From a virus, in the IMG/VR virus record IMGVR_UViG_3300005856_000023, positions 1-64,000 of that record: a stretch of DNA of 64,000 bases. One strand, given 5' to 3'. The notes under the pieces are model-generated. The model did no database searches. It was not told the origin of the DNA and saw only the letters and a program-made list of their open reading frames with translations. Position numbers and translations under genes: made by a program. This document shows positions 1 through 63,012 of the stretch, piece after piece (position 1 is the stretch's first letter; every line of letters starts with the position of its first letter).

Positions 1-224
1 TTAGTTCTTCGCAAATGTATTTCTTTTTTTACAAACATAGGTCTCAATTTTTCTCTCAAATAATCCAAAGAAGTAAATGCCTTTTCAAAATCACCACAGA
101 CAAATATGTGCAAAGCAGCGTAATTATATTCAGGCCAAGTATGTATACTGATATATGATTCAACCAAAGCTATTATACCTGTTACATCATGTGGTTCAAA
201 TTGATGAAAATAAATGTTTAGCAT
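1..224 (-). CDS. speD: SpeD-like S-adenosylmethionine decarboxylase, cut by left window edge
   Basis: The frame is open from an ATG at 224 leftward past the window edge. The translation contains the SpeD core: a HQFEPHDVTG-type stretch, then ESYISIHTWPEY and FVCGD. The Glu-Ser pair that self-cleaves to form the pyruvoyl cofactor, the His of IHTWPE and the Cys of the CGD motif are present. SpeD makes decarboxylated AdoMet for spermidine synthesis. Oddly, the homology begins almost at the start codon, so about 45 N-terminal residues of the usual enzyme (the beta-chain part) are missing. The frame stays open upstream but runs antisense through the next gene and does not look like SpeD. No class 1 or class 2 start signal is seen; an AGGAG lies about 21 nt upstream of the ATG, too far for that ATG. 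Family assignment is firm; activity is doubtful. Confidence 0.8.
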   Translation of the reverse strand, partial: MLNIYFHQFEPHDVTGIIALVESYISIHTWPEYNYAALHIFVCGDFEKAFTSLDYLREKLRPMFVKKEIHLRRT

Positions 225-285
225 AGTTAAGTTAATTAGTTTTACTCCTATTTGAAAAACCAAAACAAATCTAAATTTATATGTT

Positions 286-582
286 ATGGAACTTGCTTTC
301 AGTTTTGCTAGAAGAATACTTAACATTGATTTTGATGATATTCTGCTAAGGGATAATCCAGATGAACGACTTATGTTGAGTATTGACCGGAAAGATTTGC
401 ATACTTGCAATCCATTAGTTGGTTTATATGACGATTGTAGCAAGCATCAGAGACGCAGAAGAGTTTCAAATGTAGCTGAATATCTGTATTACAGTTTAAT
501 GTATAAATCCCTTATTCGTATAGGAATTCCAAGAGGAGAACAAGCGACAGGAGGAAAGCTATGGAGAAAGAAAAGAAGCTAA
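286..582 (+). CDS. unknown small protein (98 aa)
   Basis: Starts at the second of two ATGs behind a class 1 signal (CTAAATTT, then 7 nt). I do not recognise the protein. It has two Cys (in HTCNPLV and DDCSKH) and a very basic middle and tail (QRRRR; KLWRKKRS), which could suit nucleic-acid binding. It overlaps the next gene by 22 nt, and its last codons contain that gene's strong Shine-Dalgarno sequence, so the pair is probably one transcript with coupled translation. Confidence 0.65.
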   Translation: MELAFSFARRILNIDFDDILLRDNPDERLMLSIDRKDLHTCNPLVGLYDDCSKHQRRRRVSNVAEYLYYSLMYKSLIRIGIPRGEQATGGKLWRKKRS

Positions 583-944
583 AGCAAAGAAGTAGATCCT
601 TTAAAATCTTTATGGGCACAGGCAAAGTAGGGAATGTGAGGGTAGAGTATAGCTTACCTGTACCTTGGCAGATAAAGGTAAAGACTAAAGCCAGTATCTA
701 TTTCATCTACAAAATCAACGAAAACTTATGGTTAGTGAAGGAAAGAAGTATTCCAACAGAAAACATGATCTTAGCATACCCTGAGTGGATGAACCCGTGG
801 GAACCAAAGCTTGTTGTTGTGTATATCAACAGGAAGAAAATCTTTGTAGAGGCTGTAGCTTACAACGAAAGCATTTATCTGACAAACACAGAGAGAATAG
901 ACCTCATCCTACAAAACACAGAGGATCTGAAAATCTACAAATAA
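561..944 (+). CDS. unknown protein (127 aa), second gene of a two-gene transcript
   Basis: The start is set by a strong ribosome-binding site, AGGAGG 6 nt before ATG. This is one of the few real Shine-Dalgarno sites in the window and fits a downstream gene on a polycistronic message. The N-terminus is very basic (MEKEKKLKQRSRSFK); the rest alternates short hydrophobic strands and looks like a small beta-rich domain with several Trp. Not recognised. About 110 nt follow without a gene; they hold only the upstream region of the next start signal. Confidence 0.65.
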   Translation: MEKEKKLKQRSRSFKIFMGTGKVGNVRVEYSLPVPWQIKVKTKASIYFIYKINENLWLVKERSIPTENMILAYPEWMNPWEPKLVVVYINRKKIFVEAVAYNESIYLTNTERIDLILQNTEDLKIYK

Positions 945-1054
945 TCTACCAAGACAGTATGGGTACACTACAGGATGCTACAACCAAAACTATTGTTTTT
1001 ACCATACATTGATCTTTTGAGATAAACTTTTACAATTACACTAAATTTTTTATC

Positions 1055-1507
1055 ATGAAGCAAGCAGACAAAATACAAAAATTTATTCATGATTTTCGTC
1101 TGCAAATTGATTATGAACACAACCTAATTACAGTAGATAAAAGCTTTTTAAATTTGTCTGATAAGATATATGCTCCAATATTTAAGTATCATGATGTAGA
1201 TTATGCTCTTAGGTTTATAGCTAATGTTGTATTGCATCAGGATAAGTTGGATACACATCAATCAAAAGATAAACTACCTTTAGAAGTTATTAACGTGGCC
1301 AATAGGTTAAAAAATTTCAAAGTTTATGTTGTTAACTCAAAAAAGAATTATTGTGTTTCAATTTATCATAAAGGTAGAGAATATCAAACATTAACTAATG
1401 TTAAAGTTGTATGGCTCTGGTGTTTATATGATTTGATAGTTTACTTGACTAATGCAAAAAGTCATCTAAATTTATATGTATGTCAGACAGAAGACAGGAA
1501 GAATTGA
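1055..1507 (+). CDS. unknown protein (150 aa)
   Basis: A full class 1 signal precedes it: TTTACA, 6 nt, CTAAATTT, 6 nt, ATG. The predicted protein is soluble, Lys/Asn-rich and mixed alpha/beta, with no motif I recognise. The class 1 signal suggests expression with the replication and host-takeover set rather than with virion genes. Confidence 0.65.
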   Translation: MKQADKIQKFIHDFRLQIDYEHNLITVDKSFLNLSDKIYAPIFKYHDVDYALRFIANVVLHQDKLDTHQSKDKLPLEVINVANRLKNFKVYVVNSKKNYCVSIYHKGREYQTLTNVKVVWLWCLYDLIVYLTNAKSHLNLYVCQTEDRKN

Positions 1508-8003: not shown

Positions 8004-8624
8004 TTATTGTTCAAGCGTTGTTATGTCAATACAAATACCTAGATCTGCATACTCTATTGTTGAGTATAATGTGATATGATCTTGTATGAGATATTTGTCT
8101 TCATTAAACAAAACAATTAGTATTCTCTTGTCTTTTATATTGTTGTTGTAATTTTTTTGAATGATTTTATCATCGGTTGATATATAGAAAGCTACAATTT
8201 TGTTTTCATATTCTAATATTCCTTTGTCAAATATTAGTTGATCGTTATTGATTAATACATCTAGTTTTAATGAGCAAGGGTAGTTATTGTTTACACTGCC
8301 AAGTATATCATTCAGTATATATGTTAATTCGTCAATGATTTTACATTTATTGTTTACATTATTTGATGTCTCAAACTTACAAGCAAACGATAGATTTTTG
8401 CTTACAACTACTTTGATATTTGCTCTGCAATAATCACTTATTAGATTTTTGTTTAATATAATCTTGTCATCATATAAAATACCTTCAATGTAATTTTTGT
8501 AAACTATGGGTTTTCCTTGTTCTGTTACAATAGTAAAATCTTTTACATCAGTAGGTAAATCAATTAATGGATCTTTGATTTGAATAAATTGTGAGTTGCT
8601 TAATACATAGGCATATATGTTCAT
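8004..8624 (-). CDS. unknown protein (206 aa)
   Basis: Class 1 start: TTAGCA, 6 nt, CTAAATTT, 6 nt, ATG. Beta-rich, Asn/Asp/Ile-rich, no Trp, no membrane segment. No recognised family. Ends 2 nt from the stop of the convergent 671-aa gene. Confidence 0.6.
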   Translation of the reverse strand: MNIYAYVLSNSQFIQIKDPLIDLPTDVKDFTIVTEQGKPIVYKNYIEGILYDDKIILNKNLISDYCRANIKVVVSKNLSFACKFETSNNVNNKCKIIDELTYILNDILGSVNNNYPCSLKLDVLINNDQLIFDKGILEYENKIVAFYISTDDKIIQKNYNNNIKDKRILIVLFNEDKYLIQDHITLYSTIEYADLGICIDITTLEQ

Positions 8625-8654
8625 ACAAAAAAATTTAGTTTAGTTGCTAAACTA

Positions 8655-10577
8655 TTAGGCTAGCACATGCTTCCAATCAATGTTTCTGCTAGCAGGAACT
8701 TCAAACAATTGTCTCACCTTTTCCTTAAACTTTTCAACTAATAATTCTTGTTTTTGTTGAATAGTTACTTTGTCAGAATTTAGTTTTAGGTAGTATATGT
8801 ATGTCTCTTTTGTTTGCGAGAATCTATATACTCTGGCTATTGCTTGATGCAGATCTACATCTCTAAAGGGTAAGTCTGCATATATAACTATCCTACCTTC
8901 TGTTAAAGTAAAGCCAAATGATAAAGATGAATATGTTGCTATCAGTATTGTTCCTGGCTGTTGCTTGAATATTTGAATTGATTTTTTACGTTCTTTCAAA
9001 GATTGTTCTCCTGTAACAGTTACAATATTCCTAATACCATGTTTCTCAAGAGTTTGTTTTATGGCTTTCAATGTGTATTTGTAGTTCGTGAATATTATTA
9101 TTCTTTCCTGTTTGGAAACTAAATCTTTTATAAGCTTAATATTCTTTTCATATAACTCCATCACCAACTCTATTAATCTTTGTTTGTATATACTACTTAA
9201 CTCTTTAGTGAAACAAATCAATTTACCCATAAATAGTTGTGACATCGTTTTGTTAAATTGTTCAGCTAAAGTATGTTCGTTTCTACTTTGCAGAAAATCA
9301 TAGATTTGTTTGCGAGCGTAAACTAAATCTCTTGTTAATTTAATTTGATTTTGTTCGACGTTTTCCCTAATCATTTTTACATAATCACTAATTTGATTAT
9401 CTGTATCAACTTGTTCTATTTTTGATAGCATATCAATTAGGTTTTGTTTATAAGTGTTGTAGTTTTGATTTACTTGTTGTAGACAACCTGATGACTGATC
9501 TCTGGCTTGCTCAATAATACCATCAATTGTGTATTTATCAACATTATCTACATTTGTTTCTATAACTATTTCATGTTTTGGTGGTAAGGATAGACTGCTA
9601 CTAATTTGACTTCTTGTTACTCTGATCATACTTAAACTAAGTCTATGTTTTATCAAATCTATAGCATGTGTAGCATAAGCTGAATTATAGGCTTTAACGA
9701 AATAAGGGTAAGCATCCATATCAAACAAAGGGTCCAACAATAAAAATGCTCCTGATAGTTCAGCATATCTACCTTTGACTGGAGTTCCAGATAACAATAA
9801 TACATCATTAATGTTGTTAGCAATGACAAATTTGTATAGAGATTGCATTGTCTGTGTATCAGCATATCTTATGACTTGAGCCTCATCTAGGATAAGGAAA
9901 ATTCTCTCAACATTATAGTTCCACGGAACATGTAGTTTTGAAACATTATTAAAGTTTGTTATGATTGCAATATGATTATGGTTTGGTTGATCTAGAGGGA
10001 AAGCACAAACCTGTTCTCTTGGTATGTTGGTTAATTTCTCAAATTCATCTAGCCAATTTAATATAAGTGTTTTGGGACAAACAACAATAACTTTTGTTCC
10101 ATAGGCCAGTGATGTATATAGAGATGTTAGGGTTTTACCTGTACCAACATCAAAAGCCAAATAATAACCTCTTAGTTTGAGGTTATCCTTATATTCACCG
10201 TAATGCAAAACAAATTTATGTTGATGTGGCATTAACTCAACTTTGAAGATTTGTTTCGCTTTATCTAAATGTTTTGGTGTATCTGGTTTATGATCAAACA
10301 ATATATGATACAATACAGTATTCTCAATTAGTTCACGAGCAATTTTTAGTTGATTATTGGATATTAGTGATAGAACAATCTCAACTGTAAAAAAGCGATG
10401 AAATTTGTAGTATGTTTTGCTTCCTATACTTACATCATTGATAACCATTTTTAAAAAATTTTTGTCCTGTTCATTAACATAATCTAGCAAATTCAAATCC
10501 GTTAGATAGAAGTTTTTGCTTTCAATAATTTGCATAAACATAAATCGCTGAGATATTATCGTCAAAACAACAAACAT
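8655..10577 (-). CDS. SNF2-like superfamily 2 helicase/ATPase
   Basis: All SF2 motifs are visible: Walker A GTGKT (about residues 145-149), motif Ia (VVCPKTLILNW), a DEAQ box, SGTPVKG (motif III), IIIFTNY (IV), ATYSSLSFGF with the following TEG (V) and QAIARVYRFSQ (VI), which closely matches the SNF2 QA..R..R.GQ pattern. 640 aa. Such phage enzymes (relatives of T4 UvsW and SNF2 translocases) remodel forks or strip proteins from DNA. The ATG overlaps the end of the upstream gene by 16 nt and has no class 1/2 signal, so it is read as the second gene of that transcript; in-frame ATGs 12 and 14 codons later are possible starts. Confidence 0.9.
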   Translation of the reverse strand: MFVVLTIISQRFMFMQIIESKNFYLTDLNLLDYVNEQDKNFLKMVINDVSIGSKTYYKFHRFFTVEIVLSLISNNQLKIARELIENTVLYHILFDHKPDTPKHLDKAKQIFKVELMPHQHKFVLHYGEYKDNLKLRGYYLAFDVGTGKTLTSLYTSLAYGTKVIVVCPKTLILNWLDEFEKLTNIPREQVCAFPLDQPNHNHIAIITNFNNVSKLHVPWNYNVERIFLILDEAQVIRYADTQTMQSLYKFVIANNINDVLLLSGTPVKGRYAELSGAFLLLDPLFDMDAYPYFVKAYNSAYATHAIDLIKHRLSLSMIRVTRSQISSSLSLPPKHEIVIETNVDNVDKYTIDGIIEQARDQSSGCLQQVNQNYNTYKQNLIDMLSKIEQVDTDNQISDYVKMIRENVEQNQIKLTRDLVYARKQIYDFLQSRNEHTLAEQFNKTMSQLFMGKLICFTKELSSIYKQRLIELVMELYEKNIKLIKDLVSKQERIIIFTNYKYTLKAIKQTLEKHGIRNIVTVTGEQSLKERKKSIQIFKQQPGTILIATYSSLSFGFTLTEGRIVIYADLPFRDVDLHQAIARVYRFSQTKETYIYYLKLNSDKVTIQQKQELLVEKFKEKVRQLFEVPASRNIDWKHVLA

Positions 10578-16787: not shown

Positions 16788-18083
16788 CTATTCATCATTT
16801 ATACTCCCTTCAACGAATTGCTTTGGAATAGCTATTACAAGTCCTATTGGTAAATCTCTGAAGTAAGTTATTTTATTTGTTTTTTTGCTTTTGACTCTAA
16901 TTGTTATATTTGCATCAACACTATCACCATCAAAGTCTCCTCCCAGTGGTGCACAAGCTAACGGGTGTATTTGTATTGTATCTTGATCTGCTATAACTGG
17001 TTTTGCTGCTAGCCAAGATGTCTTATGCAAAGCTGGGTCTCTTTTATAAACCACTACAGCATCTGGTAAAACATCTTGCTCTAAAACCTTTCTAAAGAAG
17101 TTTATCAATTCTTGTGGAAACAGAGTAGGATAATTGGAAATCTTGTTTATAAGCTTAGTTATATCATTAACAGTAGGTTTAATCTCTTGTCTTGCAGTTT
17201 TTGTTATCTCTATAAATTCTTGTTTGTGTTTTGTTAGTATGCTATTAATTATTTGTGGCTTGTATAGTTGCAACAGAGCTGTAAATGGAATAGCAATTTG
17301 ATCTATCTCAAGATTTGGATTAGGACTAATAACAGATCTTGCTGTGTAGTTAACCGTTTTACTAGCAAGTTGTTCTCTAATAAAACCTGTTTTTGTTCCA
17401 AATTGTTCTGCTAACAAATCTATTAGTTTAACGATCAACCTATACAATTTTGAGCTATTAGCATTACCAACTTCAAAAGTTTTGTTTTGTTCTATTATTT
17501 TTGAGTAAATATCTGTTAACGGATGTATTGATATTTTGTTGTCTATCTTTGAGTAATCTCTCCAGCCAGGAGGAAGCACAATTATTTTGTTTGTTATCAA
17601 ATTCTCAACTTTATTGTTTGATAATTTGATTATCTCATTTATTAACCGACCGGATACACTATTCTGTTGAGCAATATACTCTATCAACTTAATCAGTTTG
17701 TTTTTCTCAAAGAAGTCTGCGAAGCCTTGCATCAAGATTTTATGATTTGTGTAGCTAATCTCTTTCTCATCTTCCAAAACTAAATTTCCTTCTTCATCAA
17801 TTGCTAAAATCCTATCTGGTCTGTTTCTGAATGCTCTGATTGTGGGTAAATTATCCAGAATCATCAACACAGGAAACTTAGGGATATATACATTCAACGG
17901 TATATATCCCATTTGCTCAAACCATTTTGAACTCTTTCTCTCACCAAATAGATATTGTGAGTACAATCCATTTATTTGGCTCAGTAACTTTTGTTCATTT
18001 AAGTTTGCAGGTAATGGTTCCATAATAGCTGGAGCATTATGCTCCTTAATAAATTGTTCCACATTTAGTAGTTCAAAAATCAT
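16788..18083 (-). CDS. multisubunit RNA polymerase beta-prime, N-terminal part with catalytic DFDGD
   Basis: The C-terminal half carries the hallmark of beta-prime: ARSVISPNPNLEIDQIAIP (cf. GRSVIV..P.L.L...GLP), then RDPALHKTSW (cf. RAPTLHR), IQIHPLACAPLGGDFDGDS with the Mg-binding DFDGD at about 383-387. All three catalytic Asp are kept. It ends about 44 residues later, so the bridge helix, trigger loop and rest of beta-prime must be encoded elsewhere, outside this window. The N-terminal ~80 residues show no clear zinc ribbon. Start by a class 2 signal (GAGC, 11 nt, ATG), unlike the two beta fragments, which have class 1 signals. Such split subunits are known from phiKZ/AR9-type phages. Confidence 0.92.
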   Translation of the reverse strand: MIFELLNVEQFIKEHNAPAIMEPLPANLNEQKLLSQINGLYSQYLFGERKSSKWFEQMGYIPLNVYIPKFPVLMILDNLPTIRAFRNRPDRILAIDEEGNLVLEDEKEISYTNHKILMQGFADFFEKNKLIKLIEYIAQQNSVSGRLINEIIKLSNNKVENLITNKIIVLPPGWRDYSKIDNKISIHPLTDIYSKIIEQNKTFEVGNANSSKLYRLIVKLIDLLAEQFGTKTGFIREQLASKTVNYTARSVISPNPNLEIDQIAIPFTALLQLYKPQIINSILTKHKQEFIEITKTARQEIKPTVNDITKLINKISNYPTLFPQELINFFRKVLEQDVLPDAVVVYKRDPALHKTSWLAAKPVIADQDTIQIHPLACAPLGGDFDGDSVDANITIRVKSKKTNKITYFRDLPIGLVIAIPKQFVEGSINDE

Positions 18084-18116: not shown

Positions 18117-19673
18117 CTAAAGCATATCTTTGATTGATTTTACGAATTTATTCACATATTCTTGTTCCAAGCCAACTACATAATTTTGAACAAAATTTAT
18201 TGCTTCATCGCTATCCTCAACAACAATCAAAGATGCATTTTTTGCTTTATTAACAACAAGCATAACAATATCCAAAGGTAAATGTTGTCTCAATTTGTCT
18301 GATAACTCATTTAAAAACTTTAGTGAATATTTTCCTTTTAGTGATAGACCTCTGCTTCCATAACTGAACACAGGACCAACTATTAGATTGTATAGCAACA
18401 TACCAAAGATATGCGGTGCAATCGACTTTAATATTTTTTCAGCTTCACTTTTGTTTTTAGCCGCTTTCAATATCGATATTAAATCATTGTTAGTTAATGT
18501 TGCAGTTTTCCAAGCAACCATACCTGATATGTCTCGTAATGTTGTAAGATCAAGATTTGCTTTATAATCTTTCAACATACTTATTAACTCTGTTTTTATG
18601 ATATGTTCCAACATAGTTAACTTAACCTCTCCTCTACATATACGTTTAAACAGATCTATCAAATACTCATTCAAAAAGTCTGGATTTTGTCTATTCAAAA
18701 AGCCTGCTAGCTTATACTCATCAGTTTGAGAGTTATATAGGAAATATCTCTTCTTAACTCCTGTTCCAAATGCAGAGTCTCCAACAAATTCCAATTTAAC
18801 TTTTGGATAATGTGCTAGTACTTTTTGTTTGTATGTGTTTGTAACAAATCTATGAGCATAAGTGTAAACCAAGGGTAAAACACTATTATTCAAAACATCT
18901 TCATGCAAAATATCATATTTATCGTAAACAAAGAAGCTATCTGTATCGTTATACATTATGAATTGAGTATTTGCATCAAACTTTTTACGAGCGTTAATAA
19001 AATCATTTATATTGACAGACAAATCATTAATGTTTTTTGTTTGTATATAACGATTAATCAAAGCTGATGCTGTTAGAGATATATATTGTCCTGTTATTGT
19101 TATGGCTTCAGCAATGTATATATTATAGAATGGAAATGAATCTGTTCCGAAGACACCGTACATGCTATTCATTGCAAGTTTGGTTGCATTCTGTATGAGA
19201 TCTGCAACTTGATCGCCTTGCTTTGCCTTTGCCTTATATATATCTCTCATTTTAATCCATTCAACTAAAGTCTTTTCTAGTAAGATAGATAAGTGATTAC
19301 CATTTGTTAGTAACCCATTAGGAGTAACAATTATGTTTTTGTTTTGTATTAAGTTCAGTAAATCTTGTCCATTCATTTCATGATCGGTAAATTGTTTTGT
19401 TGTTATAAACCATTTGTATTTGACAATTTCATCATACAATCCAAACCAAAACAATGTTCCAAATATCCTACCTGCAAACCTACCTTTTGCAAAATTATTC
19501 CAATAGGATAAATCAGCTTCATTATTTGTTTCAATACATAACAATTCTTGCAAGTATTTCTCTTCGTTTTTTATGTTTGATCCTGATACAAATCCATGAA
19601 CATCTAGAATATTGTTTGCTACCATGAGATTTGGATATAGTGAATTTACGTCAAAAACTTTTATTGTTGGCAT
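18117..19673 (-). CDS. family B DNA polymerase, polymerase domain only (518 aa)
   Basis: Motif A DVNSLYPNLM lies at residues 8-17, motif B KLAMNSMYG near 165-175, motif C YNDTDS near 241-246 and KKRY follows at about 305. All catalytic residues are present. In ordinary family B enzymes motif A comes after a 3'-5' exonuclease domain of 300 or more residues; here the protein begins right at motif A. The start is fixed by a full class 1 signal (TTTGCA, 6 nt, CTAAATTT, 6 nt, ATG), so the truncation is genuine at gene level and an exonuclease subunit should be encoded elsewhere. Neighbours are the primase (divergent) and the beta-prime fragment. Confidence 0.93.
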   Translation of the reverse strand: MPTIKVFDVNSLYPNLMVANNILDVHGFVSGSNIKNEEKYLQELLCIETNNEADLSYWNNFAKGRFAGRIFGTLFWFGLYDEIVKYKWFITTKQFTDHEMNGQDLLNLIQNKNIIVTPNGLLTNGNHLSILLEKTLVEWIKMRDIYKAKAKQGDQVADLIQNATKLAMNSMYGVFGTDSFPFYNIYIAEAITITGQYISLTASALINRYIQTKNINDLSVNINDFINARKKFDANTQFIMYNDTDSFFVYDKYDILHEDVLNNSVLPLVYTYAHRFVTNTYKQKVLAHYPKVKLEFVGDSAFGTGVKKRYFLYNSQTDEYKLAGFLNRQNPDFLNEYLIDLFKRICRGEVKLTMLEHIIKTELISMLKDYKANLDLTTLRDISGMVAWKTATLTNNDLISILKAAKNKSEAEKILKSIAPHIFGMLLYNLIVGPVFSYGSRGLSLKGKYSLKFLNELSDKLRQHLPLDIVMLVVNKAKNASLIVVEDSDEAINFVQNYVVGLEQEYVNKFVKSIKDML

Positions 19674-36008: not shown

Positions 36009-37745
36009 TTACCTTTGAACGATAAGTCTACCTACTACATTAGGATAGATTACAGATGCTCCGAATCTATGAACAGCAGTCATTGCTTGACCAAGAGTAT
36101 TTGCAGGATAAGGTATCATATGGGTTGCATAAGGTGCATATATTGCAGTGGAGAAGAATTCTTGTTTGGATTTGAGTACAAGCAAGTTCCTACCAACAGG
36201 AAGTATAGGTGTAGGTAATACCTTTATCCACTCTTCAGATCCATCTTTGCTTCTGGTGTATATCTTGAATGGGTCTGCTTTCGTTACAGGATCGGATACC
36301 CACTTACCTATGTTAACAAGTAGTGAAGCATCTTCAACATTCATCACAAGTATGGGTTCTACTTCGGGAACAGGTGTATTCCTGAGTATCTTACCAAGCA
36401 GGTTAGATATTGCATAAGGGAAATGAGTCATAACGTACATGCCTGGTCCCCAACTGTAATCAGCAAGAGCATCAGCGGTCATATCTACAGATTCTTCTAT
36501 GTTATGAACAAGTGATGCATTATACAAGTTCATTAGAAGGAATGCATCAGTGTTAAGTGCAATTATAGAAGATAGTATGCTGCTTACTTCGCCGAGTATA
36601 TCGAGATTGAAGAGAACTTGAGCATCAAAAGCCATTTCAGGAGATACAAGTATTGTGCTTTCAAGTCTATTCTCCGCAAGAGTTTGTCTTGCAAGTTCAA
36701 GTCTGAGCTTCCTAGCAGGATCTCTCGATTCATAGGCTACTCTTGCATATACCTCTATACCTTGAATTGCAGGAGCAGTTCCACCAGTTGCTATAACAGT
36801 TATAGTGAAATCACCAGATTTGAAGTCTACTCTACCAGTTACATTAACAGTGTAGGTATTGGCACCAATGGTTGCAGTTCCAGCTCCGGTTATAGCACCA
36901 GACGATTCAATATTGGAAGATACATTTATTGTTCCAGATGTCGTATCATCAGTTATACGAACAGCTATTACTCTAAAATCAGGTGTTACCCTAAGCTTAT
37001 TGTCAGGAGCAACAGTCGCAGGAGGCAACAAGTTAGCCTCACGTAGAATGTTATACACATTACCTCTTATTATCTCTTCTGCAGCAGGAGTTGTAGCGGG
37101 AACAAATACACCCTGCCCAGGAGCTGTTCCGTAATAGCCGAGAGAATCTCCACTGAGAAGTCTACCAGTTGTCATGTCTACTGATAGATAGGATGAGAAT
37201 GGATAAGGATTTGTAGAGTTAGTTAATTCCTCATAAAACCTGAAGAAGTAAACATACGAACCTGGAGCAGACATATTCCTGACATCATATACTTGCGTTG
37301 CAACAAGTCTTGGATACATAAACCTTATCAGAGGAGCCAAATACATAAAGTATGGTATCACATTAGCAGATGTATTTTCTGTAGCTATAGCCCTAAGACT
37401 ATTTTCATACAAAGTTTTAATGGCTTTGGATAGTGAATATACTTCTGCCTCTGATAGATTACCTTGTTCTGCAACTATATCGGTTACTATTGCATTGGAT
37501 ATTAAATCAATTACAGTCCTATCACCTTGTAAAGCTCTTTTTGCTAGTTCTGATATTTTATCTACAAATTCTGATGGATTTTTAGATGCATTAACCTTAG
37601 TTATATCCGAATAAAATTCTTTCACTATTTTCTTGGCATCTTCAGCATTCTTATTTGCCATTTCCATTGCTAGACTGTAAATTCTTTTTGTAGATATAAT
37701 TGAGTCAGATGGGTAAAATCTTGATAGTCTTACGTCTTTATCCAT
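36009..37745 (-). CDS. major capsid protein (HK97 fold, T4 gp23-like)
   Basis: The conserved core is clear: IPYFMYLAPLIRFMYPRLVA followed by VYDVRNMSAPGSYVYFFRFY corresponds to the gp23-type pL..IRR.FP.L.A...V..QPM.GP.G..F. Downstream, RDPARKLRLELARQTLAENR and LDILGEVSSILSSIIALN match the spine-helix region. Residues about 235-330 form a Ser/Thr/Gly-rich beta insertion (Ig-like) in the position where T4-type capsid proteins carry an extra domain. The first ~115 residues are helical and may be a removable delta domain. 578 aa. Class 2 start (TTAGC, 11 nt, ATG), directly after a terminator hairpin of the preceding gene. Confidence 0.88.
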   Translation of the reverse strand: MDKDVRLSRFYPSDSIISTKRIYSLAMEMANKNAEDAKKIVKEFYSDITKVNASKNPSEFVDKISELAKRALQGDRTVIDLISNAIVTDIVAEQGNLSEAEVYSLSKAIKTLYENSLRAIATENTSANVIPYFMYLAPLIRFMYPRLVATQVYDVRNMSAPGSYVYFFRFYEELTNSTNPYPFSSYLSVDMTTGRLLSGDSLGYYGTAPGQGVFVPATTPAAEEIIRGNVYNILREANLLPPATVAPDNKLRVTPDFRVIAVRITDDTTSGTINVSSNIESSGAITGAGTATIGANTYTVNVTGRVDFKSGDFTITVIATGGTAPAIQGIEVYARVAYESRDPARKLRLELARQTLAENRLESTILVSPEMAFDAQVLFNLDILGEVSSILSSIIALNTDAFLLMNLYNASLVHNIEESVDMTADALADYSWGPGMYVMTHFPYAISNLLGKILRNTPVPEVEPILVMNVEDASLLVNIGKWVSDPVTKADPFKIYTRSKDGSEEWIKVLPTPILPVGRNLLVLKSKQEFFSTAIYAPYATHMIPYPANTLGQAMTAVHRFGASVIYPNVVGRLIVQR

Positions 37746-41207: not shown

Positions 41208-42947
41208 ATGTTTATTCCAAATCAACTTGCACCTGGTGTTTACATCAATGTTGTATTTGCGCCTGAACCATTAATTGGATTACCTGAAAAATACAATGCA
41301 TTATTCTTTATTGTAGCAGAGAAAGGACCTGCAAATAAACCAGTGTACATAACATCAGCTCAAAGATTTCTTGATACTTTTGGTCAGCCAGATCCGAAAT
41401 TCCCATTAACATCACTTTACGCATATGAATATGTTAGGAATGGAGGACCAGCATATGTGGTTAGATTACTTCCGAGAAATGCTACAAAAGCTAATGCTAC
41501 CTTAGCTCTTGTTCCTGACCCAGTTGATGCAAATACCTATGTATGGGCATATGGGTATGTAGATTACTCTACTAATACATTTATTGGTCGCGATGAAATT
41601 AATAATAGAAGTATATCACTACCTGTATCTGCAACTTATGCTCCACCAGAACCTAACAAAGCAGTTATAATTGCACAGTTTGGTGAATACGGTATGTATT
41701 ATAACACCTATAGATTGAGATTTTTATTACCGTTACTTAGAACAAACAAAACATTTAATGTAGTTATAGAAAGAGTTGTAGGAACACAAACTGAAAATGT
41801 TGCGGTATTCAATGGTGTTACTTTTGAACCAAATGTAAATGAATTGGGATACCCAACACAAATTAATCATAGTCTTTACACATTTAACCAACCAGCATTT
41901 GAATACTTAAAGGCTAACTACATAATAAAGTATAAAGATTATGAAACGAATACTGTTACAGATACTAATACAAGACCAATAGATTCTGTTGACATAGTGT
42001 ATTCAACTAATACAATATGGAATTTTGCAGGTGGTTCTGATGGTGGATTAAGAGATCCGCTTACAGGTTCGGTAGATTTCTCATTGTTTGCCGATCTAGT
42101 TGTAGAAGCTGTATATGGTTATACTACATTACTTCCAAACAGAATACAAGGACTTATTGATGATGAAACAATATTCATCAAATACATTGTTGATCCCTGT
42201 GATGAGAGATTTCCCTATGCAAAGAGAAGATTAGTATGGAATGCTTTAGTTGATTTGGCTCAATCCAAGTATATGCTTAATGCTGGTGCTATAGTTCTGA
42301 GTAACATAGCTGATTTGTTTGACTGGTCAGATATAGGACTTTTAGATTCAACCAATCCTCCTATACCTAGACATTATCTACATGCAACTTACTATTCAAA
42401 AATTGAGGATGTTGATGGCAGAATATATCCTCACCTTAGATATGTAGTTCAAAATATTGCTAAATTAAGAGTACAACAACAAAGTATTGAACCACTTGCT
42501 GGTATTATTAATGCTACGATAACAACAGGAGTAGATGTTATACCGAGATTAACAGTTCCTGAGAGATCAAGACTGGTAGAACTTGGAATTAACTTTGCTC
42601 ACAAAGATCCTTTCTATGGTGTATTTACTGATCTTGATAGAACTACATCACTTGCTCTCGGTAAATTTCTGTATGTAATTGAGGACGTTGTTGATATTAA
42701 GAGAGAGCTAGTTAAATTGCTAAGACCGTTTGTACATAAATTAGAAACTTATGATTGGGAGAGCGTCAAAAGTTTAATCATAGACTTCATACTAAAACCA
42801 AGAGTAGCAAGTGGTTTAATAAAGGAATATGAAGTTAACTTGAGATTATCCGAAGAATTAACTAGACAAAATGTACTAGGCATAGATATGAATCTACGAT
42901 ATGCTCGCGAAATAGAACGTATTGCAGTAACAATATATGTGAGATAA
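41208..42947 (+). CDS. contractile tail sheath protein
   Basis: Typical sheath start: LAPGVYINVVF, a Phe/Val strand, then FIVAEKGPANKPVYITS, RFLDTFGQPDP and YAYEYVRNGGPAYVVRLLP (about 55-80). The C-terminal domain shows the sheath end pattern: RSRLVELGINFAHKDPFYGV, LGKFLYVIEDVVDIKRELVKLLRPFVHK and a final strand IERIAVTIYVR that donates to the neighbouring subunit. 579 aa. Class 2 start (AAAGC, 12 nt, ATG). This is the strongest evidence for myovirus morphology. Confidence 0.93.
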   Translation: MFIPNQLAPGVYINVVFAPEPLIGLPEKYNALFFIVAEKGPANKPVYITSAQRFLDTFGQPDPKFPLTSLYAYEYVRNGGPAYVVRLLPRNATKANATLALVPDPVDANTYVWAYGYVDYSTNTFIGRDEINNRSISLPVSATYAPPEPNKAVIIAQFGEYGMYYNTYRLRFLLPLLRTNKTFNVVIERVVGTQTENVAVFNGVTFEPNVNELGYPTQINHSLYTFNQPAFEYLKANYIIKYKDYETNTVTDTNTRPIDSVDIVYSTNTIWNFAGGSDGGLRDPLTGSVDFSLFADLVVEAVYGYTTLLPNRIQGLIDDETIFIKYIVDPCDERFPYAKRRLVWNALVDLAQSKYMLNAGAIVLSNIADLFDWSDIGLLDSTNPPIPRHYLHATYYSKIEDVDGRIYPHLRYVVQNIAKLRVQQQSIEPLAGIINATITTGVDVIPRLTVPERSRLVELGINFAHKDPFYGVFTDLDRTTSLALGKFLYVIEDVVDIKRELVKLLRPFVHKLETYDWESVKSLIIDFILKPRVASGLIKEYEVNLRLSEELTRQNVLGIDMNLRYAREIERIAVTIYVR

Positions 42948-50371: not shown

Positions 50372-50401
50372 CTACCTTACAAGTAATCTAAATTTTTTGT
50401 T

Positions 50402-51460
50402 ATGAGGTTAAGTAGTTTGCTACAAATTAATATTGATCGAATGCTATTGCTAGGACCTCCAGGTATCGGTAAAACATCTATTATTAAGCAGATTGCAATA
50501 TCAGAATCTGAAAAGAGAAATAAAATATTTGTTGATCTGAATGAAAAATTTTCAGCAGATGAGATATTGAAAAATCCAGATAAATACTATGTATACTATA
50601 GGATTATTGCTCCGTATTTTAATAGTGATATCATAGAATTTCCAAAAATTGTTGATGGATATGTTAAATTATTTCCTGTAGAGGTATTTGAAGTATTACA
50701 GAAATGCGAAGGTATACTATTTGTTGATGAGATAACGAATGTTCAAATACCTCATATAAGAACATTGTTCTATTCATTACTTGATTCAAAGGAATTGGGT
50801 AGTCATATAAAATTGAGTCATTTGAAAATTGTAGCGGCTGGGAACAAAATTGAACATTCGGAAGATGCGGAAACATTACCAAAACCATTGAGAAACAGAT
50901 TAATAATTGTTAATGTAGAAGTAGATGCTAATGATTGGCTAAAGTGGTATACATCATCTAATTCATTCAATGAACATGTTGCCGCGTTTATACATGAACA
51001 TCCAGGATATTTGCTATATGATGTTGATCCAAAATATGATGATGGATACACTAATTTTGCATCACCAAGAACATGGGAACGAGTTGGATTATTGCTAAAT
51101 GAAACAAAAGATAATATTGATACAAAAATTAGGAGAGAATTGTTAATGGGATTGTTAGGACCAATTGTAGCTGATAAGTTTGACTCATTCTTAAAATATA
51201 ATGTTGACTATCATAGATTAAAGAATCACTATGAATATTGGAACTCATTACATAGATCACAGAAATTGATGGCAATATTCACGATTGCAGCTAACATCAA
51301 CAAAGAATGGATTAAATTTCTAATGTGGCTAATTGATCATGAACCGGAGATGGTTAAGATTTGTTTGGATAAGGTTAATACAAAACTAGATATGGATATA
51401 GTCAAAGATCTAACAATGCTTAATGTTCAACTATCAAAAAAGATTTCGCTATTGAGATAA
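50402..51460 (+). CDS. MoxR-type AAA+ ATPase
   Basis: Walker A GPPGIGKT at 18-25, Walker B GILFVDEI near 112-119, sensor AAGNK near 142-146 and an arginine-finger segment LPKPLRNRL near 158-166. The compact AAA core without extra domains and the C-terminal helical lid fit the MoxR/RavA branch. MoxR proteins work with VWA partners to insert metals or remodel protein complexes; a VWA partner is encoded at 32867. 352 aa. Full class 1 signal (TTACA, 6 nt, CTAAATTT, 6 nt). The stop overlaps the convergent 127-aa gene by 12 bp. Confidence 0.85.
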   Translation: MRLSSLLQINIDRMLLLGPPGIGKTSIIKQIAISESEKRNKIFVDLNEKFSADEILKNPDKYYVYYRIIAPYFNSDIIEFPKIVDGYVKLFPVEVFEVLQKCEGILFVDEITNVQIPHIRTLFYSLLDSKELGSHIKLSHLKIVAAGNKIEHSEDAETLPKPLRNRLIIVNVEVDANDWLKWYTSSNSFNEHVAAFIHEHPGYLLYDVDPKYDDGYTNFASPRTWERVGLLLNETKDNIDTKIRRELLMGLLGPIVADKFDSFLKYNVDYHRLKNHYEYWNSLHRSQKLMAIFTIAANINKEWIKFLMWLIDHEPEMVKICLDKVNTKLDMDIVKDLTMLNVQLSKKISLLR

Positions 51461-60739: not shown

Positions 60740-61264
60740 ATGAAATGTTTGTTACAAGACGAGAAATTAACGTTTATATTTAGACACTATTATGTTTCAT
60801 GTTATAATTATAGTTATAGTAATTATCAAGCCAATGGAATATTATCTTTCGCTGCCATGGATTTATCTTTTAAAATTATAAAGGAACAAAAAAGAAAATC
60901 TATTATTTTAAAAAAGAGGAAACCGATCATACATTTATTAAATTACATTGATATACTCAATTTCAATCTCAATAGTAATAAATTTGACATTACCTTTTTC
61001 TCAATAAATAACTACAAAATAAAATTAGTATATAACTTGTATTTATACCGAAGAAGACCCTTTAAGGACTTTGCTTATAAAGATAGCCTAAAAGTTATTG
61101 AACGCGAAAACCTATGTGTCATTAGATTTGAAGATGATTTTGCTAGTAGAGTACAGCCAAAGAATGTAAATTTATCCGCTATGGTAATGCATATACTTGA
61201 GAAGGAAAAGAGTTATGAGATAGATGTAGGTAGTATAATATTTTATTGTGTACTTCTAATGTGA
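60740..61264 (+). CDS. tandem family protein, copy 1 (174 aa)
   Basis: Class 1 start. Conserved blocks shared by all four: MKCLL.D.KLTF, then IIKEQKRKSIILKKRKPI (basic, about 53-70) with HLLNYIDILNF, NLYLYR..PFKDF (about 105-120), a KVIE.ENLCVIRFE strand, KNVNLSAMVMHILEKEKS and the C-terminal hydrophobic SIIFYCVLLM. Basic and alpha/beta; function unknown. Variable parts are residues 15-40 and 75-100. Confidence 0.75.
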   Translation: MKCLLQDEKLTFIFRHYYVSCYNYSYSNYQANGILSFAAMDLSFKIIKEQKRKSIILKKRKPIIHLLNYIDILNFNLNSNKFDITFFSINNYKIKLVYNLYLYRRRPFKDFAYKDSLKVIERENLCVIRFEDDFASRVQPKNVNLSAMVMHILEKEKSYEIDVGSIIFYCVLLM

Positions 61265-61326
61265 TAAACATTACTGATATGTTATCGTTAGCTTACATAA
61301 CTTAAAAACAATCTAAATTTTTTTCT

Positions 61327-61845
61327 ATGAAATGTTTGTTACACGACGAGAAATTAACCTTTGTATTTAAACACTATTATATTTCATATTATAATTGTGG
61401 TTTTAGGAATTATCAAATCAATGGAGTATTATCTTTTGCTATCATGGATTTAGCTTTTAAAATTATAAAGGAGCAAAAAAGAAAATCTATTACTTTAAAA
61501 AAGAGAAAACCAATTATACATTTGTTAAATTATATTGATATACTCAATTTCAATCTCAATAGTAACAAATTTGGCATTGACTTTATCTCAGAAAATAACT
61601 ACAAAACAGAATTAGCACGTAACTTGTATTTATACCGAACAAGACCCTTTAAGGACTTTGCTAAAGATAGCCTAGAAGTTATTGAATACGAAAACTTATG
61701 TGTCATTAGATTTACATATGATTATGCTAGTAGAATACAGCCAAAGAATGTAAATTTAGCTGCTATGGTAATACATATACTTGAGAAGGAAGAGAGTAAG
61801 ATAGATGTAGGTAGTATAATATTTTATTGTGTACTTCTAATGTGA
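61327..61845 (+). CDS. tandem family protein, copy 2 (172 aa)
   Basis: Same architecture and class 1 signal as copy 1. It lacks two residues after PFKDF (AKDSLE instead of AYKDSLK) and one or two near the end. Differences concentrate in residues 15-40 (FKHYYISYYNCGFRNYQING) and 78-100, indicating divergence of a presumed binding surface while the basic core is preserved. Confidence 0.75.
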   Translation: MKCLLHDEKLTFVFKHYYISYYNCGFRNYQINGVLSFAIMDLAFKIIKEQKRKSITLKKRKPIIHLLNYIDILNFNLNSNKFGIDFISENNYKTELARNLYLYRTRPFKDFAKDSLEVIEYENLCVIRFTYDYASRIQPKNVNLAAMVIHILEKEESKIDVGSIIFYCVLLM

Positions 61846-61907
61846 TAAGCATTTCTGATATGTTATCGTTAGCTTACGTAGCTTAAAAACAATCTAAATT
61901 TTTTTCT

Positions 61908-62432
61908 ATGAAATGTTTGTTACACGACGAGAAATTAACCTTTGAATTTAGAAACAATTATGTTTCATGTGATAATTATACTTATAGTAATTATCAAGCC
62001 AATGGAATATTATCTTTTGCTGTCATGGATTTACTTATTAAAATTATAAAGGAACAAAAAAGAAAATCTATTGTTTTAAAAAAGAGGAAACCGATCATAC
62101 ATTTATTAAATTACGTTGATATACTCAATTTCAATCTCAATAGTAACAAAGTTGACATTACCCTTTTCTCAAAAAATAACTACAAAACAAAATTAGTATA
62201 TAACTTGTATTTATACCGAACAAGACCCTTTAAGGACTTTGTTTATAAAGATAGTCTAAAAGTTATTGAACGTGAAAACTTATGCATCATTAGATTTGAA
62301 TATGATTATACTACTATAGTACAGCTAAAGAATGTAAATTTAGCCGCTATGGTAATGCATATACTTGAGAAGAAAAAGAGTCGTGTGATAGATGAAAGTG
62401 GTATAATATTTTATTGTGTATTTCTAATGTGA
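61908..62432 (+). CDS. tandem family protein, copy 3 (174 aa)
   Basis: Same architecture and class 1 signal. Closest to copy 1 in several blocks (YSNYQANGILSFA, KDSLKVIERENLC), but with KKKSRVIDESGIIFYCVFLM at the C-terminus. Open frame with no disruption. Confidence 0.75.
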   Translation: MKCLLHDEKLTFEFRNNYVSCDNYTYSNYQANGILSFAVMDLLIKIIKEQKRKSIVLKKRKPIIHLLNYVDILNFNLNSNKVDITLFSKNNYKTKLVYNLYLYRTRPFKDFVYKDSLKVIERENLCIIRFEYDYTTIVQLKNVNLAAMVMHILEKKKSRVIDESGIIFYCVFLM

Positions 62433-62493
62433 TAAACATCACTGATAAGTTGTCGTTAGCTTACGTAGCTTAAAACAATCTAAATTTTTTTTT

Positions 62494-63012
62494 ATGAAAT
62501 GTTTGTTATACGACTATAAATTAACCTTTACATTTAGAAACGATCATGTTACATTTTGTATTCATGTTTATGGTGATTATCAAGCCAATGAAATATTATC
62601 TTTTGCTGTCATAGATTTATTTATTAAAATTATAAAGCAACAAAAAAGAAAACTTATTATTTTAAAAAAGAGAAAACCGATCTTACATTTGTTAAATTAC
62701 ATTGATATGCTCAATTTCATTAGTAATGAATTTAACATTACCTTTTTCTCAAAAAATAAATACAAAGCAGAATTATTATATAACTTGTATTCATACCGAA
62801 CAAAACCCTTTAAGGACTTTGGTCGTAAAAATGGTCTAAAAGTTATTGAAAACGAAAACTTTTGTGTCATTAGATTTGAATATGATTATGTTAATATAGT
62901 AAAGCCAAAGAATGTAGATTTAGCCGCTATGGTAATGCATATACTTAAGAAGGAAGAGAGTGATGAGATAGATGTAAGTAGTATAATATTTTATTGTGTA
63001 CTTCTAATGTGA
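62494..63012 (+). CDS. tandem family protein, copy 4 (172 aa)
   Basis: Most diverged copy: MKCLLYDYKLTF start, IIKQQKRKLIILKKRKPI core kept, a three-residue deletion near NFISNEFN, and RKNGLKVIENENFC. The hydrophobic end SIIFYCVLLM is identical to copies 1 and 2, so this tail is probably functional. Class 1 signal with T9 before ATG. Confidence 0.75.
   Translation: MKCLLYDYKLTFTFRNDHVTFCIHVYGDYQANEILSFAVIDLFIKIIKQQKRKLIILKKRKPILHLLNYIDMLNFISNEFNITFFSKNKYKAELLYNLYSYRTKPFKDFGRKNGLKVIENENFCVIRFEYDYVNIVKPKNVDLAAMVMHILKKEESDEIDVSSIIFYCVLLM

Follow-up and report, generated by a model that had tools for sequence, protein, structure and literature searches.

The DNA analysed here (the window) covers bases 1 to 64,000 of a phage record that is 129,010 bases long. 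The minus-strand frame at its left end (Table 1) is, judging by profile scores, a match to the SpeD family far beyond chance. PF02675 matches positions 15-245 of the minus strand (E = 6.6e-23, profile positions 28-104 of 107), and the 74-aa reading from the ATG at 224 matches the same profile with E = 2.4e-20 (positions 36-104 of 107; 73.3 bits against a cut-off of 25). This reading also passes TIGR03330 of NCBIfam (79.5 bits, cut-off 75.65) and matches phrog_3125 (E = 2.3e-17), while a DNA search of window positions 1-64 against the phage collection gave no match. Among solved structures, residues 3-72 of the window protein align to residues 44-113 of the class 1b SpeD of Aquifex aeolicus (2iii, E = 4.2e-20); that the best solved relative comes from Aquifex is no more than a hint at the host. 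The C-terminus, which the initial annotation proposed to read from the left flank, is visible in a variant copy at the far end of the record, where the C-terminal sequence reads ...HLRETNASNKL and a few further SpeD codons lie inside the end of the adjoining 407-aa gene.

Table 1 Features at the left end of the window (positions in bases of the window).
Feature	Position	Strand	Remarks
SpeD C-terminal part (class 1b AdoMet decarboxylase)	3..224	minus	74 codons; frame runs off the record start
Left copy of an imperfect 20-bp direct repeat (17 of 20)	155..174	plus	start-to-start spacing 820 bp
ES codons (pyruvoyl-forming serine)	156..161	minus	next residue Y, invariant H elsewhere
Open frame 5' of the SpeD remnant	225..443	minus	SpeD-like in no more than a few residues; runs antisense to the ORF at 286-582
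98-aa ORF, no known family	286..582	plus	phage-type CTAAATTT start motif; lies where the SpeD 5' part is expected
127-aa ORF, no known family	561..944	plus	overlaps the 98-aa ORF; AGGAGG-type ribosome site; raised GC
Right copy of the imperfect 20-bp direct repeat	975..994	plus	exactly 820 bp are lacking here in the far-end copy
150-aa gene bordering the locus	1055..1507	plus	common to two sister phage records

The window protein lacks the N-terminal part of SpeD, as the initial annotation had proposed. Its HTWPE motif starts at residue 28, whereas all 81 homologues compared (the viral homologue L003, IMGVR_UViG_3300032248_000908, and the best 80 of 130 from a genome scan) have it at residue 66 or beyond. 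In the 74 homologues that were aligned, seven with odd starts or lengths being left out, 38-48 residues (median 40) precede the position at which the window protein starts. The remnant begins at strand β2, and strand β1 and helix α1, which usually make up the ~40 N-terminal residues, are absent, so that the whole α/β fold with β1 and α1 ahead of β2 is not encoded. In the predicted structure of full-length L003 (pLDDT 89.8), a strand (14-21) and helices (25-28 and 31-44) precede strand 49-56, the starting point of the window protein, and these preceding elements correspond to the missing part. The model of the window protein itself is of moderate confidence (pLDDT 79.4, pTM 0.63), lower than that of L003.

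A separate segment that could supply the missing strand, which the initial annotation had named as a finding that would overturn its reading, was not found in the record by profile searches with controls. An N-terminal profile that recovered 20 of 20 left-out homologues (sampled from the 74) at E ≤ 7e-10 detected no segment in the six frames of the window, L002 and the two sister records L005 and L006 described below (best E = 0.064). A second N-terminal profile (A1, 18 sequences), which found its target in 5 of 5 genomes outside A1, gave no match at E ≤ 10 in any of the three related phage records. Nor did these searches support a short frame on the minus strand (about 1012-970) that had been suspected to be the old gene start. 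The frame upstream of the remnant is open as far as a TTG at 443 and, in agreement with the initial annotation, is antisense to the 98-aa ORF and does not resemble SpeD beyond a few residues. Besides the two end copies, the PF02675 profile search revealed no second or intact SpeD in the 129-kb record, and no spermidine synthase was found in the record.

The place of the SpeD 5' part is taken by two overlapping ORFs on the opposite strand. They lie in a stretch of 754 bp (225-978) that is unique in the record, and the GC content of 200-base windows within 301-1000 is 0.34-0.40, compared with 0.23-0.31 in the rest of the first 2.2 kb. Searches of Pfam, PHROGs, NCBIfam, phages and PDB sequences, and a scan of viral contigs for close relatives, found no relative of the 98-aa or the 127-aa ORF, and for the 127-aa ORF none was found in plasmids. 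The ORF pair (286-944, plus strand) is absent at the same place from the far-end copy and from both sister records, and thus behaves as a presence/absence cassette. The cassette may have been inserted into speD, or it may have arrived beside it, with a deletion following.

All three motifs listed in the initial annotation, ES, IHTWPE and CGD, are present in the window protein, and residues 23, 28 and 43 are the Ser, His and Cys that correspond to Ser63, His68 and Cys83 of Thermotoga maritima SpeD, given as essential in PMC10407285. The same catalytic residues are found in the class 1b structures (2iii; T. maritima 1tlu/1tmi), from which the window protein differs by the absence of the first ~40 residues and by the replacement of three residues invariant in our survey. 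To describe the motifs as intact is too generous, since these three neighbours are changed: residues 13, 24 and 39 are Asp, Tyr and His, whereas every one of the 78 distinct cellular and the 52 distinct viral homologues compared (from 80 cellular and 79 non-kin viral rows, duplicates removed) has Gly, His and Asp at these positions. The replacements affect the Gly of PxG, the His after ES and the Asp of DxFxCG. Since the His after ES is still kept in the far-end copy, the Tyr is particular to the window copy. The Asp-to-His replacement near CGD is common to the window, far-end and L005 copies, which are all three of the copies that reach this position, and is therefore older, predating their split.

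The last ~275 bases of the record repeat its first ~1,100 with differences. The far-end copy matches window positions 2-168, with a few mismatches and one indel, and 989-1101, and is without the 820 bp between them (169-988); its SpeD frame is frameshifted. A deletion between the direct repeats explains why this copy is 820 bp shorter. The record probably has redundant termini or is circular, two variants having been joined during assembly.

The genes bordering the locus, a 407-aa gene (96% identical) and the 150-aa gene (91%), are common to two sister phage records, IMGVR_UViG_3300034404_000011 (L005) and IMGVR_UViG_3300042858_000011 (L006). In L005, the SpeD frame starts past ES, so that ES is lost, and is frameshifted; ~80 unrelated bases stand in place of the SpeD 5' part. 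No further copy of this ~80-bp piece was found in the three records, and no tRNA genes were found that would explain it. In L006, only ~36 bp of speD remain, about a dozen codons, and PF02675 gives no match. Both sister loci are far from the contig ends (at ~28.1 kb of 53.9 kb and ~19.7 kb of 88.0 kb). A full-length SpeD, the restoration of which the initial annotation had also named as overturning its reading, is present in no sister copy. Different disabling lesions are found in the related copies (far end, L005 and L006), and the four allelic states of the locus represent the graded loss of one gene. Between the window and far-end copies (54 codons) we count 0 synonymous and 4 non-synonymous differences, and between the window and L005 copies (45 codons) likewise 0 and 4, numbers too small to test selection; neighbouring genes such as a 145-aa gene also carry many non-synonymous changes.

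The usual start signals of this phage are absent from the SpeD frame. Among 68 ATG-started ORFs of at least 100 aa within the window, 33 carry TAAATTT no more than 45 bases ahead of the start and 3 carry a ribosome-site-like stretch at the normal distance. Neither signal is in place for the SpeD frame (ATG 224), where the closest AGGAG stops 20 bases short of the ATG.

We consider that the locus holds an ordinary auxiliary polyamine gene that is decaying in this phage and not a new enzyme, with a probability of roughly 0.88. The phage lineage would once have acquired speD, and the gene is now probably being lost. In the window copy, ~40 5' codons encoding β1 and α1 are gone and the two unrelated opposite-strand ORFs stand in their place; the remaining frame would start at an internal methionine, and a working decarboxylase is probably not produced. 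Further loss seems to have proceeded by the 820-bp deletion between short direct repeats, in one copy, and by frameshift, and would end in the stub of roughly a dozen codons that one sister phage retains. Direct observation covers the truncation, the four locus states and the replaced invariant residues; we infer that the protein is inactive, that the events followed an order of this kind and that the gene descends from one for an active AdoMet decarboxylase. The decayed gene that the initial annotation offered as one of its readings is thus borne out by the four locus states, the replaced invariant residues and the absent start signals. Against decay stand the 74 codons of the window copy without stop or frameshift, the retention of the catalytic Ser, His and Cys, and the fact that the truncated sequence is still modelled at the pLDDT given above.

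These same features leave some room for a truncated protein with a function. SpeD enzymes act as dimers, and the remnant might be expressed as a partner of the host SpeD, with which it would form a mixed dimer and act as decoy or regulator; for this the trypanosome prozyme, reportedly inactive, would be a model. The frame without stops and the kept catalytic core would fit such a role, and the full-length relative has structures of the trypanosome AdoMetDC and prozyme among its weaker fold matches. However, the far-end copy and both sister records are further deleted or frameshifted, no phage-type start motif precedes the SpeD frame, the fold lacks one strand and one helical stretch, and three invariant residues are replaced; we regard a host partner as highly improbable. 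Equally improbable is the more specific proposal that a core of 74-79 residues is made in infection, where it would cleave itself without β1 and α1 or pair with the host SpeD, the 98- and 127-aa ORFs being its co-acquired partners; if this were true, the core would be a minimal or trans-acting viral SpeD. Phage enzymes of the SpeD family, some with changed substrate, are already known, and homologues with arginine or ornithine decarboxylase (ADC or ODC) activity are described in PMC9992855 and PMC10407285. The remnant could accordingly be imagined as a small decarboxylase neofunctionalised towards arginine or ornithine, and the Asp-to-His replacement, being older than the split of the copies, would be compatible with this. 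Yet the phage homologues whose sizes appear in the accessible portion of PMC9992855 have 117-122 aa, while 38-48 residues are missing here, and the replaced Gly, His and Asp are kept in all 52 viral homologues, which possibly include such enzymes. A changed substrate therefore appears extremely unlikely. No positive evidence was found for either the host partner or the altered decarboxylase activity suggested by the initial annotation, and the loss in sister phages together with the missing strand and helix makes both unlikely.

An assembly artefact would place a whole gene in the real phage and make the truncation a misjoin at the record end. Both copies of this phage's locus sit at record ends, where assembly is least safe, and the unique 754-bp stretch with its raised GC has no copy elsewhere in the record. 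The sister copies, however, are broken at the same place in the interior of their contigs, the 98-aa ORF bears the phage's own start motif, and both borders of the stretch are phage DNA common to the far-end copy, which leaves a misjoin very unlikely.

The phage SpeD proteins of phrog_3125, from cyanophages, Thermus phages and IMG/VR contigs such as L003, belong to the same family as the window protein and are likewise phage-carried; L003 is 61% identical to the window protein in the best segment (residues 1-53). We surveyed the best 80 of 120 viral loci from an alignment scan, one of which is a sister record itself. Unlike in the window copy, the N-terminal part is in frame in 77 of the 79 non-kin loci; the remaining two, of identical sequence, begin at ES and have the N-terminal part upstream, out of frame. 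Among these best 80 of 120 loci, the phage group of the window is the only one in which the N-terminal part is wholly absent. Catalogues already include short SpeD-like ORFs of phages, in phrog_25723 (57 positions, called S-adenosylmethionine decarboxylase), the alignment of which covers residues 20-69 of the window protein only, and a literature search found no paper on an N-terminally truncated phage SpeD. The locus offers a case study of how a phage may lose an auxiliary polyamine gene: four stages of the loss are represented across closely related genomes, and a two-gene cassette of no known family stands in place of the lost part. It also indicates that speD profile matches in viral contigs, even above curated cut-offs and with catalytic residues, need not represent a working enzyme.

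The two surveyed loci of identical sequence, L128 and L134 (at about 1300-1720), come from two samples and have the N-terminal part in a different frame from the rest. This could be another case of speD decay, an error, or a frameshift exploited in expression. In L003 (2570-6280), the full-length speD lies, as seen by eye, between apparent genes for the large and small subunits of ribonucleotide reductase.

Several other genes in the window indicate a phage with a contractile tail that carries jumbo-phage-like genes within a record of just ~129 kb. They encode an SNF2-type helicase most similar to helicases of jumbo phages (OBP and others; 8655-10577, minus), an RNA polymerase Rpb1 domain 2 protein (16788-18083, minus), a family B DNA polymerase (18117-19673, minus), a Gp23-like capsid protein (36009-37745, minus), which gave no match against the phage collection, and a tail sheath protein (41208-42947, plus). 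Four tandem ORFs of 172-174 aa (60740-63012, plus), the first of which has no Pfam match, are 66-82% identical to one another, each with the same upstream motif. The start motif CTAAATTT stands directly before start codons (e.g., 1041-1057, 8622-8638 and 50388-50404), and its combination with six bases and ATG occurs 32 times in the window, compared with 0.31 expected from shuffles. Together with the near absence of ribosome-site-like stretches (3 of 68 ORFs), this pattern points to a phage promoter from which leaderless or very short-leader transcripts arise, or else to a special start signal. In another set of genes, the upstream stretches seem, by eye, to be rich in AGCA/AGCT instead.
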